From Chloroflexota bacterium (GTDB lineage Bacteria; Chloroflexota; Limnocylindria; Limnocylindrales; CSP1-4), in contig PMBG01000104.1 in NCBI GenBank assembly GCA_003153755.1, forward strand, positions 27,682 through 63,337: DNA of 35,656 nucleotides, in the 5' to 3' direction. Below, in pieces: positions 1-7,147 of the stretch; position 1 is the first letter of the stretch; each line of letters begins with the position of its first letter. The notes beneath the pieces were generated by a model. The model saw only the letters and a list, made by a program, of their open reading frames with translations, did no database searches and was not told the DNA's origin. A program made the translations under genes and the position numbers.

Positions 1-1923
1 GATGGCGGCGTTCAGGGCGAGCAGGTTCGTCTGGGCTGCTATGTCCTCGATCGTGGCGACGATCTCGCCGATCTGCTCGGCGTGCGCGTTGGTCTCCGCA
101 ATGATGGCGGCTGAGGAGTCTACGGCCTGCTCGATCGATTCCATCTGCGCAAGTGTCTGGCGGAGTGCGTCGGAACCGCGCTCGGCGGTCGCAACGGCCT
201 TTCTCGTGGCCGACGCAACGGCTTCCGAGCTGGTGCGGGCAGTCTCGACGGCCCGGGCGATGTGGGTCGCCGTCTGGGTAAGGCTGTCGGTGGCCCGCGC
301 CTGATCTCTGGCGGCCTCGGCGATGGCATCTACCGAGCCGGCGATGCGGTGGATGCTGGCGTTTGCGCGCGTAACGGCGGCGGCCTCGTTGTTGGTGGCC
401 TCGGCCATCTGCGAGATCGTGAGCGAGATGCCCTGCGTGGCCTCGCCCGACGAATCAGCCGTTCCGGACAGATTCGCGCTTACGGTGCGGAGCCGGGCTG
501 CCCGCCTGTTGAGCGTGTACATGAGGCCGCGGAGGCTCGACGACTCGGAGTTGAAGGTAGCGACCACCACGCCGGCATCCACTGCCCTGTTGATCGACTT
601 GACGATGCCCGTGTCGTTGATGGGCGTTGCGAGCGCGTCGTAGCCCTTGCCGGCCATGGCTTCGATGGCGGCGGCGCGGATCGGCAGATTCCAGGCAAGG
701 CCGGGCTCGGGGACGATCCACTCCACGCTGGCGTTGTACGGCCGGAGTTCGTCGGCGGCCGCGAGAACGCCGTCACGGACCGGATACCAGAACGAGCTGT
801 CCTCGATCCCGATGACGGCGATGCGCAGCTTCCGCGACGACGCCTTCATGGGCCTGGGCCCGTGTTCGATCGTGGCCTGCGATCGAATGACGCCCTTGCC
901 GGGCTGCCAGAACTGCTGATGGTTGGCCGCGGTGACCAGATCCATCGATGTAACCATGCGCGAGTCGGTCGGCTGCCATCCCGCCGCCAGGTGGTTGAAC
1001 AGGTGGATGGCCGCGTCGTGGCCCTGGGCATACGGATCCTGGCCGATCGTGGCGGAGACGACGCCCTTGATGACGAAAGGCATCAGCTCATCTGTGAGGT
1101 CGTGCGTGATCAGCGTGATGCGGCCGGAGAGACCCGCCGCCGCGACGGCCTGCGCCGGGCCGACCGTCGGTCCGGTGCAATAGAGTCCAACCAGCCGCGG
1201 GTACTTCTTCATGAGCGCAGCCAGGGGAAGGCTGTCGCCGGGCCCGCATTTGACCAGTTCGGTGACCTGGAGCTCCGGATACTTCTCGCGCAATGCGGCC
1301 TGGAACCCTCTGCGCCGGACCTCATAACCCGCGTGGTTCAGGTCGCCCGACAGGATGACGACCTGCCCGCGCCCGCTCGTGAGCCGCCCCATGTGCTCGC
1401 CGCATATCTGGCCCTGCAGGTATCCATCCGGACCTACATAGAGCAGGCGGCGGCACGGCTCGTCCGTCACGCTGTTCAGCTGGGCCGCGCCTTCAGAGAC
1501 GCTCGTCGAGATCCGGTTGAATACGCCGGCGAGGCGGCCAACCTCAGGAGCGCACGTGGAATCGACGACGACGGCGCGCAACTGCGGATCCATCCGATTG
1601 GTCAGGTCGCCCTGGGCGACCGCCGCGAGCATGTCCGATAGGGCTACGATCTCCTGCGACGCCAGCGCTTCGGTCGCGGTCGCGATCTGTACAAGCGGGC
1701 GGGAAATCGTCAGGCGAACGATCCCGAACGTGACGGCCCAGCCTGCCACGATGCCCAGACCCAGGACTGCGTCCGAACCGCCGAGGACCGAGATTCCGGC
1801 AATGGCGGGCAGCGCCCACAGCGCCAGACAGGCCAGACCCAGGGCCAGCCCGGCGTAGATCGTTCCGCGAAGGATCAACGCGCGTCCAGCTCGGATCCTC
1901 GAATGCCCGTTCGTCGCAGTCAT
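1..1923 (-). CDS. Methyl-accepting chemotaxis protein with an internal, lobe-swapped sugar-binding domain (3' end outside window)
   Basis: 641 codons are open from an ATG at 1923 to the window edge. Two hydrophobic segments (about residues 16-43 and 50-70) with almost no loop between them are followed by a HAMP-like linker (about 75-145). Residues 156-340 look like the C-terminal lobe of a LacI/ribose-type periplasmic-binding fold (LLYVGPDGYLQGQ, then GQVVILSG). Residues 366-465 look like the N-terminal lobe of the same fold (LRIAVIGIEDSSFWYPVRDG, then AVDAGVVVATFNSE). The lobes are therefore in reverse order. A coiled-coil chemoreceptor signalling region follows from about 470 and contains AAQTNLLALNAAI next to the hairpin tip. 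With no periplasmic loop, the binding fold should lie in the cytoplasm and sense an internal ligand; this is inference. GGGAG lies 10 nt before the start. The methylation helices and end of the protein are beyond the window. Confidence 0.85.
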   Translation of the reverse strand, partial: MTATNGHSRIRAGRALILRGTIYAGLALGLACLALWALPAIAGISVLGGSDAVLGLGIVAGWAVTFGIVRLTISRPLVQIATATEALASQEIVALSDMLAAVAQGDLTNRMDPQLRAVVVDSTCAPEVGRLAGVFNRISTSVSEGAAQLNSVTDEPCRRLLYVGPDGYLQGQICGEHMGRLTSGRGQVVILSGDLNHAGYEVRRRGFQAALREKYPELQVTELVKCGPGDSLPLAALMKKYPRLVGLYCTGPTVGPAQAVAAAGLSGRITLITHDLTDELMPFVIKGVVSATIGQDPYAQGHDAAIHLFNHLAAGWQPTDSRMVTSMDLVTAANHQQFWQPGKGVIRSQATIEHGPRPMKASSRKLRIAVIGIEDSSFWYPVRDGVLAAADELRPYNASVEWIVPEPGLAWNLPIRAAAIEAMAGKGYDALATPINDTGIVKSINRAVDAGVVVATFNSESSSLRGLMYTLNRRAARLRTVSANLSGTADSSGEATQGISLTISQMAEATNNEAAAVTRANASIHRIAGSVDAIAEAARDQARATDSLTQTATHIARAVETARTSSEAVASATRKAVATAERGSDALRQTLAQMESIEQAVDSSAAIIAETNAHAEQIGEIVATIEDIAAQTNLLALNAAI

Positions 1924-2113: not shown

Positions 2114-3010
2114 CTAGGCTGCGAGGCCCGCGGCGAGAGTCAGGGCGCTGCGCGATCGGTTCAGGATGTAGAGGTGGTAGCCCGGCGCTCCATGCGCCAG
2201 GAGATCGCGTATCTGGGTCAGGGCCCAGTCGATGCCGAGCGCTTCGATGATTTCGGGCTGGTCGCCGGCCGCTTCCACGCGCCGGACCAGCCGTTCCGGT
2301 AGCGAGGCACCGCACATGCCGGTTATGCGCGTGGCCTGACGGAGCGAAAGCACAGGCATGATGCCCGGCACAATCGGCACGGCTATCCCGGCCGCCCGGC
2401 ACCTGTCCACGAAGCGGTAGTAGGCGTCGTTGTCGAAGAACAGCTGTGTGGTGACGAACGATGCCCCGGCGTCCACCTTGCGCTTGAGATTGGCCAGGTC
2501 GGCATCGAATGAGGGAGCTTCCGGGTGCTTCTCCGGATATCCCCCGACGCCCAGGCACAGGTCGGGGTGCAGGCCCTTCAGCAGGGCAACCACGTCGGAG
2601 CCGAAACGCAGCCCGTCGTGGAACGCGCTCTCCGGCGTGGAGCCGCCGGGCAGGTCGCCGCGCAAGGCCATGATGTTGCGGATCCCTCGCGCGTAGTGCG
2701 CATGCGCCACGGCCGCCACCTCGTCTCGAGTGTGGTTGACCGCGGTCAGGTGCGGCATCACCGTGAAGCCGAATTCCTCCTTGAGGATCGACGAGACGTG
2801 GGCGGTACGTTCCTGGGTGCTGCCCCCGGCGCCGTACGTCACCGAGACGAAATCCGGCTCGATCCGCCTCAATGCCGCCGCGGTCTCGCGCAATGCCTGG
2901 ACGCCGGCTTCGTCCTTGGGCGGGAAGAACTCCAGCGATCGAAGCGGCCTGCCCTCATCGAGCAACTCGGAGATGGGTCTGTCGGACGGTGGCGGCTGGT
3001 GGGCGGACAT
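2114..3010 (-). CDS. metF: 5,10-methylenetetrahydrofolate reductase
   Basis: A 298-aa protein, the normal length for bacterial MetF. It reduces 5,10-methylene-THF to 5-methyl-THF with FAD and NAD(P)H, supplying methyl groups to methionine synthase in the cytosol. Family marks visible: SLEFFPPKDE near the N-terminus with the catalytic Glu (residue 27), VTYGAGGST (57-65), MALRGDLP (114-121), the QLFFDN strand and PGIMPV. No methionine synthase gene is adjacent, so it appears to stand alone. The ATG is preceded by TATCAT with only 7 nt between, which suggests a leaderless transcript. I looked for a SAM riboswitch upstream and saw none. It is divergent from the GH6 cellulase gene. Confidence 0.95.
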   Translation of the reverse strand: MSAHQPPPSDRPISELLDEGRPLRSLEFFPPKDEAGVQALRETAAALRRIEPDFVSVTYGAGGSTQERTAHVSSILKEEFGFTVMPHLTAVNHTRDEVAAVAHAHYARGIRNIMALRGDLPGGSTPESAFHDGLRFGSDVVALLKGLHPDLCLGVGGYPEKHPEAPSFDADLANLKRKVDAGASFVTTQLFFDNDAYYRFVDRCRAAGIAVPIVPGIMPVLSLRQATRITGMCGASLPERLVRRVEAAGDQPEIIEALGIDWALTQIRDLLAHGAPGYHLYILNRSRSALTLAAGLAA

Positions 3011-3017
3011 GGATTCG

Positions 3018-3023
3018 ATGATA
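3018..3023 (-). promoter_or_regulatory. -10 box of metF, leaderless type
   Basis: TATCAT on the minus strand ends 7 nt before the metF ATG. At this spacing transcription would begin at or next to the start codon. No convincing -35 element is visible. Confidence 0.5.
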
Positions 3024-3085
3024 GGCGCAAAGACGGGACGGGAAGTGATCGGACGCGCGGCGGGTATGTTCGGCCGGACGACCTA

Positions 3086-3097
3086 AACCTTAAGGTT
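3086..3097. promoter_or_regulatory. Perfect 12-bp palindrome, possible operator
   Basis: AACCTTAAGGTT is fully self-complementary and lies about 75 bp before the metF start and 255 bp before the GH6 start. Its AT content stands out from the GC-rich surroundings. The binding protein is unknown. Confidence 0.35.
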
Positions 3098-3351
3098 GCG
3101 GAGCCAATCCGTTGAGTAGGGCCTTCATGAGATACCTGTCCCATGGGCCTGATCCGACCGGTGCGGGTACCGTCGAGGACAGGCGCTTCTGAGGTTGGCT
3201 AGCAGAGCCATGGCTAGAGGGGCCTCGGTGACGCGCTACAAGGACACGAATGACGGCCCGGGCATCGCTATGTCTGCGGCCGATCCGGAGGAGTGCGCGC
3301 CGCCGTCTTGGGCGAGTGTCCCGACGCCCACGAGTCGTGAAAGGACCGGTA

Positions 3352-5211
3352 ATGCAAGCACGCGTCAATCGGATCTTGGGAGTGGCGGCGGCGTCGCTCC
3401 TGGTAGTGACGGCGATCGCCGCCACGAGGTCGGCACCAATCGTGGCCAACTCTCACGTGGTCAACCCGTACGCCGGCGCCGCGGGGTACGTGGACCCGAG
3501 CTACGCCTACCAGGTGGAGCGGTCGGCCAAGGCCATGGACGCCTCGAACCCGCAGCTCGCGGCCGCAATGCGCGTCGTCGAGCAGCAGTCCACGGCGGTG
3601 TGGCTCCCCAGCATCGCCTCGATCGCCGGGCCGGCTTCTCCTCAGCCCGCCAATGGCTACAGCCTGAAGGGACATCTCGACAACGCCGTCGCTCAGATGA
3701 ACAGCAACGGCGGTACGCCGGTTGTGATCACCCTCGTGATCTACGACGCTCCCGGCCGTGACTGCGGCGCAACGGCATCGGCGGGCGAACTCACCACGGA
3801 CGGGTTCGGGTTCACCCGCTATATGACTCAGTACATCGACCCGATCGCGGCACTACTCAACGACTCGAAGTACGCCGACCTTCGCATCGCGCTGGTCATC
3901 GAGCCCGACGGCCTGCCGAACATGGTCACGAACCTCGTGAGCCAGAACTGGATCGCCCCGCAGACGGTGATCAACTGCAACGCGGCCCACAACTGGGTCG
4001 ACGGTGCGGTCATCTACTCTCTCGGCAAGTTCCACCCGATCGTGAACGCCTATACGTTCCTCGACATCGCCAACTCCACCTGGCTCGGCTGGTCGTCAAA
4101 CCAGGACTTGGCCGCCACCTACTACGCGAACCTGATCACCGGATCGAAGGCCTCCGGCGCACTGCCGGACGGGTTCAACTCCGTCGACGGCTTCTCGTCC
4201 AACGTCTCCAACTTCGTGCCTACGACCGAGCCCTTCTTCACGGCTAGCAAGCCGGTCGACGCGACGAGTGCCACGTTCTACGACAGCAACGCGACGGTCG
4301 ACGAGCTCGGCTACGCCACCGCGGAGCTTGCCAAGCTCAAGGCCAAGGGCTTCACCGCCAACACCGGCTGGATCATGGACACCGGCCGCAACGGCTGGGG
4401 CGGTCCGAACCGACCGACCAAGGCCAGCACCAGCACGTCAGTCAATACATTCATCGATCAGTCGAGGATCGACCGCCGAACCACCCGCGCCGCCTATTGC
4501 AACCCAGACGGCGCCGGTATCGGTGCGCTGCCGAGCGCCACCCCGTCCGGAAGCCCCGGCATCTGGGCCAACGTCTGGGTCAAGCCCCCGGGCCAGTCCG
4601 ACGGCGGTGCCACCAGCGGCATCGCGGGCTACGATTCCAACTGCGACCCGTCCAAGACCGTTTCCATGAAGACCCAGCTAACGGGCGCGCTCCCCAACGC
4701 CCCCAGAGCGGGCACCTGGTTCCCGCAGCAGTTCCAGCAGCTTGTGGCGAACGCCTATCCCGCGCTCAACGGCTACAGCCCGGCCACGAACGGCCCACCA
4801 AGCACCGCGACTCCGGCCGCGGGGGCCTCTTGTATCGTCAACGGGGCGCCCAAGGTGAGCGCCACCGGTGTCTGGTACCCGGACGCGAGGTGGGTCAACA
4901 CCACCGCCCTCGGGCAGCAGTACACGGGCTTCCAGGCAACCGTTACCGTCGTCAACAACGGCACCGTGCCAACCACGGGCTGGAAGGTCACGTGGGTTTG
5001 GAAGACCGGCTCTGGGTGGGATAGCGTCGCGACGTTCCAGAGCTTCTGGAACGGCAACGAGTCCCTGGGCTCGGACGGGAACACCGAGACCGTGACGAAC
5101 ATGAGCTACAACGGTGTCATCCAGCCCGGCCAGAGCACGACCTTCGGGTTCGTTGCGAACGTCAGCAACGGCATCGTTCCGTCGCCGAAACTGACCTGCA
5201 CCGCAAGCTAA
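3352..5211 (+). CDS. Secreted GH6 cellulase (cellobiohydrolase/endoglucanase) with C-terminal CBM2
   Basis: 619 aa. A signal peptide (residues 1 to about 30, MQARVNRILGVAAASLLVV) precedes a GH6 catalytic domain (about 60-480). Both GH6 signatures are present: VIYDAPGRDCGA near 127, and VIEPDGLPNMV with the catalytic-acid Asp near 186. DTGRNGW near 343 and WVKPPGQSDG complete the active-site loops. The last ~120 residues form a family 2 carbohydrate-binding module, with TGWKVTWVW, FQSFWNG and the usual Cys at each end for a disulfide. GH6 enzymes hydrolyse beta-1,4-glucan with inversion, releasing cellobiose; whether this one is exo- or endo-acting depends on loops I cannot judge. Start chosen at the ATG with AAGGA 6 nt upstream and a signal peptide directly after. 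A strong terminator follows. Confidence 0.95.
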   Translation: MQARVNRILGVAAASLLVVTAIAATRSAPIVANSHVVNPYAGAAGYVDPSYAYQVERSAKAMDASNPQLAAAMRVVEQQSTAVWLPSIASIAGPASPQPANGYSLKGHLDNAVAQMNSNGGTPVVITLVIYDAPGRDCGATASAGELTTDGFGFTRYMTQYIDPIAALLNDSKYADLRIALVIEPDGLPNMVTNLVSQNWIAPQTVINCNAAHNWVDGAVIYSLGKFHPIVNAYTFLDIANSTWLGWSSNQDLAATYYANLITGSKASGALPDGFNSVDGFSSNVSNFVPTTEPFFTASKPVDATSATFYDSNATVDELGYATAELAKLKAKGFTANTGWIMDTGRNGWGGPNRPTKASTSTSVNTFIDQSRIDRRTTRAAYCNPDGAGIGALPSATPSGSPGIWANVWVKPPGQSDGGATSGIAGYDSNCDPSKTVSMKTQLTGALPNAPRAGTWFPQQFQQLVANAYPALNGYSPATNGPPSTATPAAGASCIVNGAPKVSATGVWYPDARWVNTTALGQQYTGFQATVTVVNNGTVPTTGWKVTWVWKTGSGWDSVATFQSFWNGNESLGSDGNTETVTNMSYNGVIQPGQSTTFGFVANVSNGIVPSPKLTCTAS

Positions 5212-5263: not shown

Positions 5264-5428
5264 GTACGGGCAGGCCATTCGTGGTGGCCGATCTTACCGG
5301 CACGTCTCACGCGCCGACCGTATTGGAATCGGCGTTCCGGCGGCCGACTCCCCACTGAGGGCTTTGCGATTGCCGCACGGGCATCGGACTCATCCTGAGT
5401 CCAAGCCTTGTCACGAGGTCGGGTCCAG

Positions 5429-7147
5429 GTGAGTTCCAGGCGAATCGCGCCGCGGCGGATGGTCGTATTCACTCCGGAGGCCGGGGGCTTCTATGTTGGA
5501 GAGGTCCTCGCCGGGATTGACGACGTCTGTGCCCATCATGACTCCCAGGCCGTGGTCGTCCAGACGGCCGTGGGCTGGCAGGCCTCGCTTGTGAATCACA
5601 ATCCGACCAGCGATTACTACAGGCTCGGACGAAACCAACGGCTCGGGATGATCGTGGTCACGGCAACCGCGCACCCCGAGGAACTTGCCATCCTGTCGCA
5701 AAGCGACGAACCGATGGTCGCGGTCGCGGGTCCACACCCCAAGCCCGGCGGACCGTCGGTCGTCGTCGACAACGCCGGCGGGGCGGCCCAGGCAGTGAGG
5801 CACCTCGTCGCCCACGGGCATCGGAAGATCGGCTTCGTGGGCGCGTTCGTCCAGCACGACATCGTCGAGCGGTATCGAGGCTATCTCGCGGCCCTGGACG
5901 AAGCCGGCATCGAACTGGACCAGACCCTCGTGTACGGAGTCCAGGACGATCAGTCCCACGGTGGCACCGAGGCCGCCGAACTCATCCTGGAAGGGGGCGT
6001 GCCGCTGTCGGCCGTGTTCGTCTCAACGGACACGCACGCCGTCACGCTCATGGACGCGCTTCGGGAGGCCGGACTGAGAGTCCCGGACGACGTCGCGGTC
6101 ATCGGCTTCGACGACTCGGACCTGGCCCAAACCGCCGTCCCGGCGCTCACCTCCATACGCCAGACCCCGAGCGCTCTCGGAACCGCGGCGGCGGACACGC
6201 TGCTCGATCTGGTCGACGGCGTTCCCGGCGCCGACGGCATGCACGTCCTGCCCACGGCCCTGATCCTGCGGCATTCGTGCGGCTGCTTCGAAACGCAACA
6301 CGGGTTCGCGGAGTCGTCGCAAGACTGGAACGCGCCCGATTGGCAGGACCGCCTGCGAGAGATGCTGGAGCAAATGCTCGCGTCTCAACCGGCCGAGAGC
6401 AGCGCCCGTGATCTGGACGAGGCATGGCCGGGCGGTGAAATAGTGATCCGGGCGTTCGACGCGGCCGTTCGAGGCGTGTCCGCCTCGAACGTGGCCGGGC
6501 TGGATGGAGCGTGGCGAAGTGCCAGCATCCGAACTCGAAATTCCGAAACGCTCCTGGGTCTCGTAGACCTCTTCGAGTTCGTGGGTCTGTGCCGCCAGTC
6601 CGGTGCCGACGGTGATACCGAGGCGATCCGGCCCAGACTCGGCGGGTTCCTGGCGCAGGCGCGACTGGAGATCCTCCGTTACGCCTCGATTGCAGATCCA
6701 CTCAGCCACCCCCAGGCGCCACGCATCGTGCGCGACTTGACCCGCTCGTTTCTGAGTCCGGGCTCCAACGGAGCCACGAGTCTCGATTGGCTGCGACACA
6801 TCGAAGCTACGCGTGGGTGCCTGGCCTTGTGGGAGCCGGGCGACAAGGGACGCGTGCTCCGAATCGTTCGCTGGTACGGCGACACGCTGAGCGATGAACC
6901 GCTGGGGGCCGTGGTCGACCCGGAGGACTTCCCGCCGGCTGAATGGGTCGACGACAGTGCGGCGGACGGCCGGCCGAATACGGTAACCATCGTCCCGATT
7001 CTTACCCCGAGTCGCGACTGGGGCATCCTGGCCGCCATCCTGCCCAAGACGCACCGCTACTACGACGGCTTCTGGGCGCTTCAGTACGGGACGTCGCTCG
7101 TGGCCCTTTCCCTCGAACGCGACGTGACCGGCCAAACCTCGGCCTAG
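5429..7147 (+). CDS. LacI-like ligand-binding sensory protein without a DNA-binding domain
   Basis: About 572 aa. The first ~285 residues are a LacI/PurR-type periplasmic-binding fold: MVVFTPEAGGFYVGEVLAGI, AVRHLVAHGHRKIGFVG, GLRVPDDVAVIGFDDSDLA and PALTSIRQ are all typical. The usual N-terminal helix-turn-helix is absent, and none is encoded in the 165 bp upstream in any frame. The C-terminal ~280 residues are mostly helical, ending in a possible GAF-like segment (WGILAAIL then FWALQYGTSLVALSLERD). No GGDEF, kinase or AraC motif is visible. It may sense a sugar released by the flanking glycoside hydrolases and pass the signal by protein contact; this is inference. Start uncertain: GTG 5429 has GAGG 10 nt upstream, with TTG 5408 and ATG 5459 as alternatives. 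Confidence 0.8.
   Translation: MSSRRIAPRRMVVFTPEAGGFYVGEVLAGIDDVCAHHDSQAVVVQTAVGWQASLVNHNPTSDYYRLGRNQRLGMIVVTATAHPEELAILSQSDEPMVAVAGPHPKPGGPSVVVDNAGGAAQAVRHLVAHGHRKIGFVGAFVQHDIVERYRGYLAALDEAGIELDQTLVYGVQDDQSHGGTEAAELILEGGVPLSAVFVSTDTHAVTLMDALREAGLRVPDDVAVIGFDDSDLAQTAVPALTSIRQTPSALGTAAADTLLDLVDGVPGADGMHVLPTALILRHSCGCFETQHGFAESSQDWNAPDWQDRLREMLEQMLASQPAESSARDLDEAWPGGEIVIRAFDAAVRGVSASNVAGLDGAWRSASIRTRNSETLLGLVDLFEFVGLCRQSGADGDTEAIRPRLGGFLAQARLEILRYASIADPLSHPQAPRIVRDLTRSFLSPGSNGATSLDWLRHIEATRGCLALWEPGDKGRVLRIVRWYGDTLSDEPLGAVVDPEDFPPAEWVDDSAADGRPNTVTIVPILTPSRDWGILAAILPKTHRYYDGFWALQYGTSLVALSLERDVTGQTSA

Follow-up and report, generated by a model that had tools for sequence, protein, structure and literature searches.

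A chemoreceptor gene of a Chloroflexota bacterium with a circularly permuted sugar-binding fold between a HAMP-like linker and the signalling coil

The first 1923 nucleotides of the window (the whole 35,656-nt stretch of DNA that was analysed) carry on the minus strand a chemoreceptor gene, which encodes a methyl-accepting chemotaxis protein (MCP) with a permuted sugar-binding domain (1..1923). The gene begins with an ATG at position 1923. Its frame runs open through base 1, since the contig is interrupted by a 2-base N gap immediately to the left of the window, and the gene's 3′ part is missing. From N- to C-terminus, the protein consists of two membrane helices, a weak HAMP domain, the later part of a type I binding fold, that fold's first ~95 residues and the chemoreceptor coil. 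Residue numbers refer to a 672-residue frame counted from base 2016; subtracting 31 gives the numbering of the initial annotation.

All parts of the gene are given here on the minus strand. The two transmembrane helices (1702..1881) form a single hydrophobic block of ~60 residues in hydropathy calculations, made of two near-adjacent segments between residues 46 and 105; the annotated pair of helices with almost no loop is thereby confirmed. The HAMP-like linker (1501..1716) scores 17.0 bits against Pfam HAMP, below the cut-off of 25, and the corresponding score of a GGDEF-bearing paralogue (L005) is 24.8 bits. An entry helix (1468..1548; residues 58-84 of the structural model) leads into the later part of the binding fold (892..1467), which holds the C-lobe, the N-lobe return strand and helix, and a C-terminal tail ending near FWQP. 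A linker (835..891), delimited by comparison with the canonical protein L090/L032, in which FWQP is the end of the open frame, joins the old C-terminus to the old N-terminus and is the re-joined end of the permutation. It is followed by the first ~95 residues of the fold (535..834), comprising N-lobe strands 1-4 relocated behind the C-lobe, and by the signalling helix and chemoreceptor coiled coil (1..534). The MCPsignal match over 1-210 reaches 38.0 bits in Pfam, above its cut-off of 34.6 despite truncation, and is complete in relatives. Further, the genome has five CheW-domain matches, one of them within an 846-residue frame of CheA size.

The topology strongly indicates a sensor that lies in the cytoplasm, as had been proposed, because the inter-helix loop is almost absent and because some relatives have either no membrane helix or a lone N-terminal anchor. 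In particular, two proteins of one genome (L112/L028 and L107, in G178) have no in-frame membrane helix upstream, and several copies in the group of G181 have a single short anchor at the N-terminus, in many cases with basic residues after it. An inverted topology with a periplasmic sensor, which would match the location of its nearest relatives, the periplasmic binding proteins, is extremely improbable: with HAMP ahead of it and the signalling coil behind it, the domain shares the side of the MCP or GGDEF output, there is no room for another membrane crossing, and copies without membrane helices exist.

The sensor matches Peripla_BP_4 (PF13407) in two stretches with 109.1 bits against a gathering score of 35.1, the best stretch placing residues 186-339 on profile positions 91-250. 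When the single sequence is compared to the PDB (phmmer), residues 184-340 align with positions 90-250 of a T. maritima sugar-binding protein and residues 397-492 align with its positions 2-92, the second match being weak (E 0.3). A family profile built from 28 relatives sharpens both: the C-segment matches positions 95-256 of T. maritima glucose-binding protein (E 1.2e-34) and the N-segment matches positions 2-92 (E 1.6e-10), so that the two matches adjoin in inverted order with just two residues missing between them. These matches bear out the annotated placement of a C-lobe (156-340 in its own numbering) ahead of an N-lobe (366-465), as well as the agreement of the break points. The N-segment profile by itself again finds T. 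maritima glucose-binding protein as its best PDB matches (E ~4e-12).

Moreover, every fetched open frame was classed with two profiles, one for each segment. All 48 distinct sensor-fused proteins are permuted, with the C-segment before the N-segment, inverting the canonical N-lobe-then-C-lobe order of Peripla_BP_4; 39 of them have an MCP tip motif, 6 have GGDEF and 3 have an output unrecognised by motif. By the same classing, the 20 free-standing binding proteins are all canonical, and an MCP or GGDEF motif occurs in none of them (0/20). An assembly chimera was ruled out, as the same order recurs in dozens of independent genomes. The inverted order stands, but its description as a lobe swap does not fit in full: the 'C-lobe' segment also holds the N-lobe return strand and helix and the C-terminal tail, and the arrangement is therefore a circular permutation with its break at hinge crossover 1 rather than a simple exchange of two whole lobes.

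AlphaFold models, calculated as monomers, strongly indicate that both segments form one two-lobed fold with a predicted ligand cleft. The window protein has a pLDDT of 84.3 and a pTM of 0.75, with both segments mostly above 85-90, and a distant relative without membrane helices has a pLDDT of 83.6 and a pTM of 0.73; the strand order of the models places four N-lobe strands in the relocated position. In Foldseek searches, which respect chain order, the models align over about 362 columns, the whole length, with TpMglB-2 (Tp0684; PDB 5jx2 and 6bgc), a circularly permuted glucose-binding lipoprotein proposed as 'Type Ic / Cluster Bc' (PMC4990184). The rmsd of 5.6-8.4 Å makes this a superposition at the level of the whole fold only; for 6bgc, the target TM is ~0.5 and the rmsd 5.6-7.2. 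Canonical proteins align over varying stretches, ~180-230 columns where the rmsd is low. Together, the two models and the alignment to TpMglB-2 agree with the earlier expectation that the lobes pack into one binding fold.

A permuted chain could also work across a receptor dimer, the C-segment of one chain and the N-segment of its partner forming a cleft in which the ligand bridges the two. Chemoreceptors are parallel dimers, and the ~20-residue linker between the segments could permit such a swap. We regard this arrangement as unlikely, however, since the monomer predictions give a compact two-lobed domain within one chain at high confidence and TpMglB-2, of comparable topology, is a monomer (PMC4990184).

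Cleft positions were read from an alignment of 16 permuted proteins to E. coli ribose-binding protein. We take its contact residues to be F15, F16, D89, R141, D215 and Q235. Their equivalents are kept, with F15 in 16/16 proteins, F16 as W in 15/16, D89 as N in 15/16, R141 and D215 each in 16/16, and Q235 in 15/16, and the conserved positions are drawn from both segments. This retention favours a sugar or sugar-like ligand. On inspection, some of the cleft residues seem to have been lost in the spirochaete-like relatives; this lends some weight to the idea that the permuted domain binds no ligand and is a spacer or docking platform, with sensing left to the membrane helices or HAMP. A spacer would have no need of R, D, Q, N and aromatic cleft positions that are near-invariant across distant groups, making that idea improbable.

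The same data bear on the alternative raised by the initial annotation, that the segments are half-domains left over from tandem binding domains that each lost one lobe and do not act as a single binding fold. Tandem duplication is indeed the likely historical route, and a canonical tandem pair exists: a single frame at the L040 locus (2763-4781) encodes two canonical binding domains in tandem, with a 300-nt repeat of 82% identity spaced 930 nt apart. Even so, separate half-domains are very unlikely and the earlier alternative is disfavoured. Two complete binding domains in one protein were looked for among the 48 distinct relatives and found in none (0/48), the same canonical protein is closest to both lobes, cleft residues are kept in both, and AlphaFold packs both segments as one two-lobed domain.

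The permuted domain is joined to its flanking helices without indels. Among 27 relatives, the alignment has no gap at the entry junction, from column 66 in the entry helix up to the first strands of the C-lobe. It has none at the exit junction either, where the N-lobe end passes into the signalling helix. The GGDEF start motif lies 34 residues past the junction in all 6 copies. Of the 27 permuted MCPs measured, 17 have 177 residues between the sensor end and the MCP tip and 10 have 149; the two lengths differ by 28 residues, exactly four heptads. Such spacing is expected of a continuous, phase-sensitive helix, and the indel-free junctions fit a mechanical link by which closing of the lobes would act on the signalling helix, which we infer.

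These results are combined in one explanation, which we hold with fairly high confidence: a membrane-anchored chemoreceptor whose sensor is a natural circular permutant of a type I solute-binding domain of the ribose/glucose type, which lies on the cytoplasmic side with HAMP before it and the signalling coil after it, is of one origin, and is predicted to drive output by ligand closure. Both new ends would sit at hinge crossover 1, the HAMP-side helix leading into the C-lobe at its first strand and the signalling helix exiting from the last of the relocated N-lobe strands. Binding of a cytosolic sugar or sugar-like ligand in the cleft would close the lobes, and closure would shift the entry helix relative to the exit helix, altering the activity of CheA or of the GGDEF domain.

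As read from the aligned sequences, the trees show a single origin of the permuted sensor module. The tree from both lobes places the permuted proteins on one side of a branch with support 99/100, beside an ordinary Bacillota binding protein, and the C-lobe-only tree recovers the permuted clade at 97/99. The N-lobe by itself is too short for a well-resolved tree, and the permuted proteins do not form a single clade in it. The best canonical scorer for both lobes is L090/L032, a binding protein from a Bacillota metagenome-assembled genome (C 238 bits, N 105 bits); the second-best for both is L111, whose contig also has, next to it, a gene resembling a sugar ABC permease, RbsC-like by eye. L090 and the permuted proteins share the tail ending in FWQP, which in the permuted ones is followed by a ~20-residue linker into the old N-terminus, and this is what a tandem duplication with loss of the outer halves would leave. 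The permutant thus probably arose, once, when the gene for the sugar-binding protein of an ABC transporter was duplicated in tandem and the outer halves were lost. The tandem pair of L040 is the kind of intermediate that could yield a permutation, and such pairs do occur.

The permutant would later have been re-used with a GGDEF output. The permuted sensor is joined to GGDEF, with no MCP coil, at L005 (364-2658, minus strand), L024, L025, L026 and L068-L071, L005 being a paralogue in the window's own genome. The GGDEF-fused sequences form one subclade in the tree, and the output was therefore probably swapped from MCP to GGDEF once within the genus.

Within the class, the permuted sensor occurs in 15 of 177 genomes, all of the window's genus. 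It is also present in 10/82 genomes of the group of G180, in 8/296 of the group of G181 and, in a group labelled Acidobacteria, in G178 alone, with four permuted copies; the remaining matches in that last group score far lower, and the ones that were inspected have the canonical order. This patchiness across groups suggests horizontal transfer. FlaA, a spirochaete flagellar sheath family, is present in the permuted-sensor genomes of the group of G181 and absent from 14 control genomes, and these genomes are therefore probably spirochaetes.

Several known systems resemble the receptor in part. Solute-binding proteins normally contact chemoreceptors outside the cell. Canonical CUT2-type sugar-binding proteins (T. 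maritima 2h3h/3c6q, L090/L032 and L111) also belong to Peripla_BP_4, have the same cleft residues and are homologous in both lobes, but unlike the receptor sensor they have the N-lobe first and are exported and free-standing. Cytoplasmic or HAMP-linked chemoreceptors with PAS or GAF sensors have a cytosol-facing sensor in line between HAMP and coil; the window receptor has, in that same position, a permuted two-lobed sugar-binding fold instead. TpMglB-2 is likewise a natural circular permutant of a type I binding protein in which an extra crossover joins the old ends. However, it relocates three N-lobe strands (PMC4990184), whereas the model of the receptor sensor has four relocated and the cut at hinge crossover 1, and it is a free periplasmic ABC-transporter lipoprotein, in contrast to a sensor fused to HAMP and to MCP or GGDEF. 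The receptor sensor thus shares the permuted type I topology of Type Ic and departs from it in the number of relocated strands and in not being a free tethered protein. With these different cuts, four strands against three in a predicted structure, the two permutations are probably independent events. The order of the matches to 5er3, a solute-binding protein of Rhodopirellula baltica (profile positions 151-386 on chain positions 31-261; 259 Foldseek columns), suggests that this type I binding protein is permuted too. Its cut apparently falls inside the C-lobe, and it is not fused to a signalling domain; the open-access literature searched contained no paper on it.

It is generally recognised that signalling proteins can have sensor domains of the binding type (PMC9602780), and TpMglB-2 had already made permutation of a type I binding protein known. 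The open-access literature searched yielded no account of a permuted one within a chemoreceptor or diguanylate cyclase, and by that measure the use of such a domain as a receptor or GGDEF sensor appears new. We lean, by a small step past even, toward a cytosolic sensory module of a new class, in which a Venus-flytrap domain is opened at the hinge strand and set in line in a dimeric signalling coil (HAMP to MCP, HAMP to GGDEF), its closure scissoring the flanking helices, with a single origin and a range covering Chloroflexi, the spirochaete-like group and two or more other groups. A binding protein would here have been brought into the cytoplasm and re-wired by circular permutation into a plug-in sensor for two outputs, and internal sugar sensing is predicted to feed chemotaxis and c-di-GMP. 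With both ends at the moving hinge, it is a testable case for the use of permutation and a natural counterpart to engineered sensors. For example, cpGltI in a red fluorescent protein is an engineered permuted binding-protein sensor (PMC6335823) whose new ends also lie where ligand closure can drive output; that sensor is man-made with a fluorescent output, whereas the window receptor is natural with a coiled-coil output.

The neighbours of the receptor gene vary among relatives, including a helicase/nuclease, an aldo-keto reductase, a phosphofructokinase and a GH109-like gene, and here MTHFR and a GH6 cellulase. A conserved operon pointing to the ligand was accordingly rejected, as nothing in these neighbourhoods is decisive. 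The GH6 glycoside hydrolase with CBM2 near the receptor gene (3250-5208, plus strand), probably a secreted cellulase, is at most a hint at the ligand. Beyond it, the plus-strand frame at 5408-7147 encodes a LacI-type binding domain (Peripla_BP_3/1) with no Pfam DNA-binding match, followed by ~290 unassigned residues.
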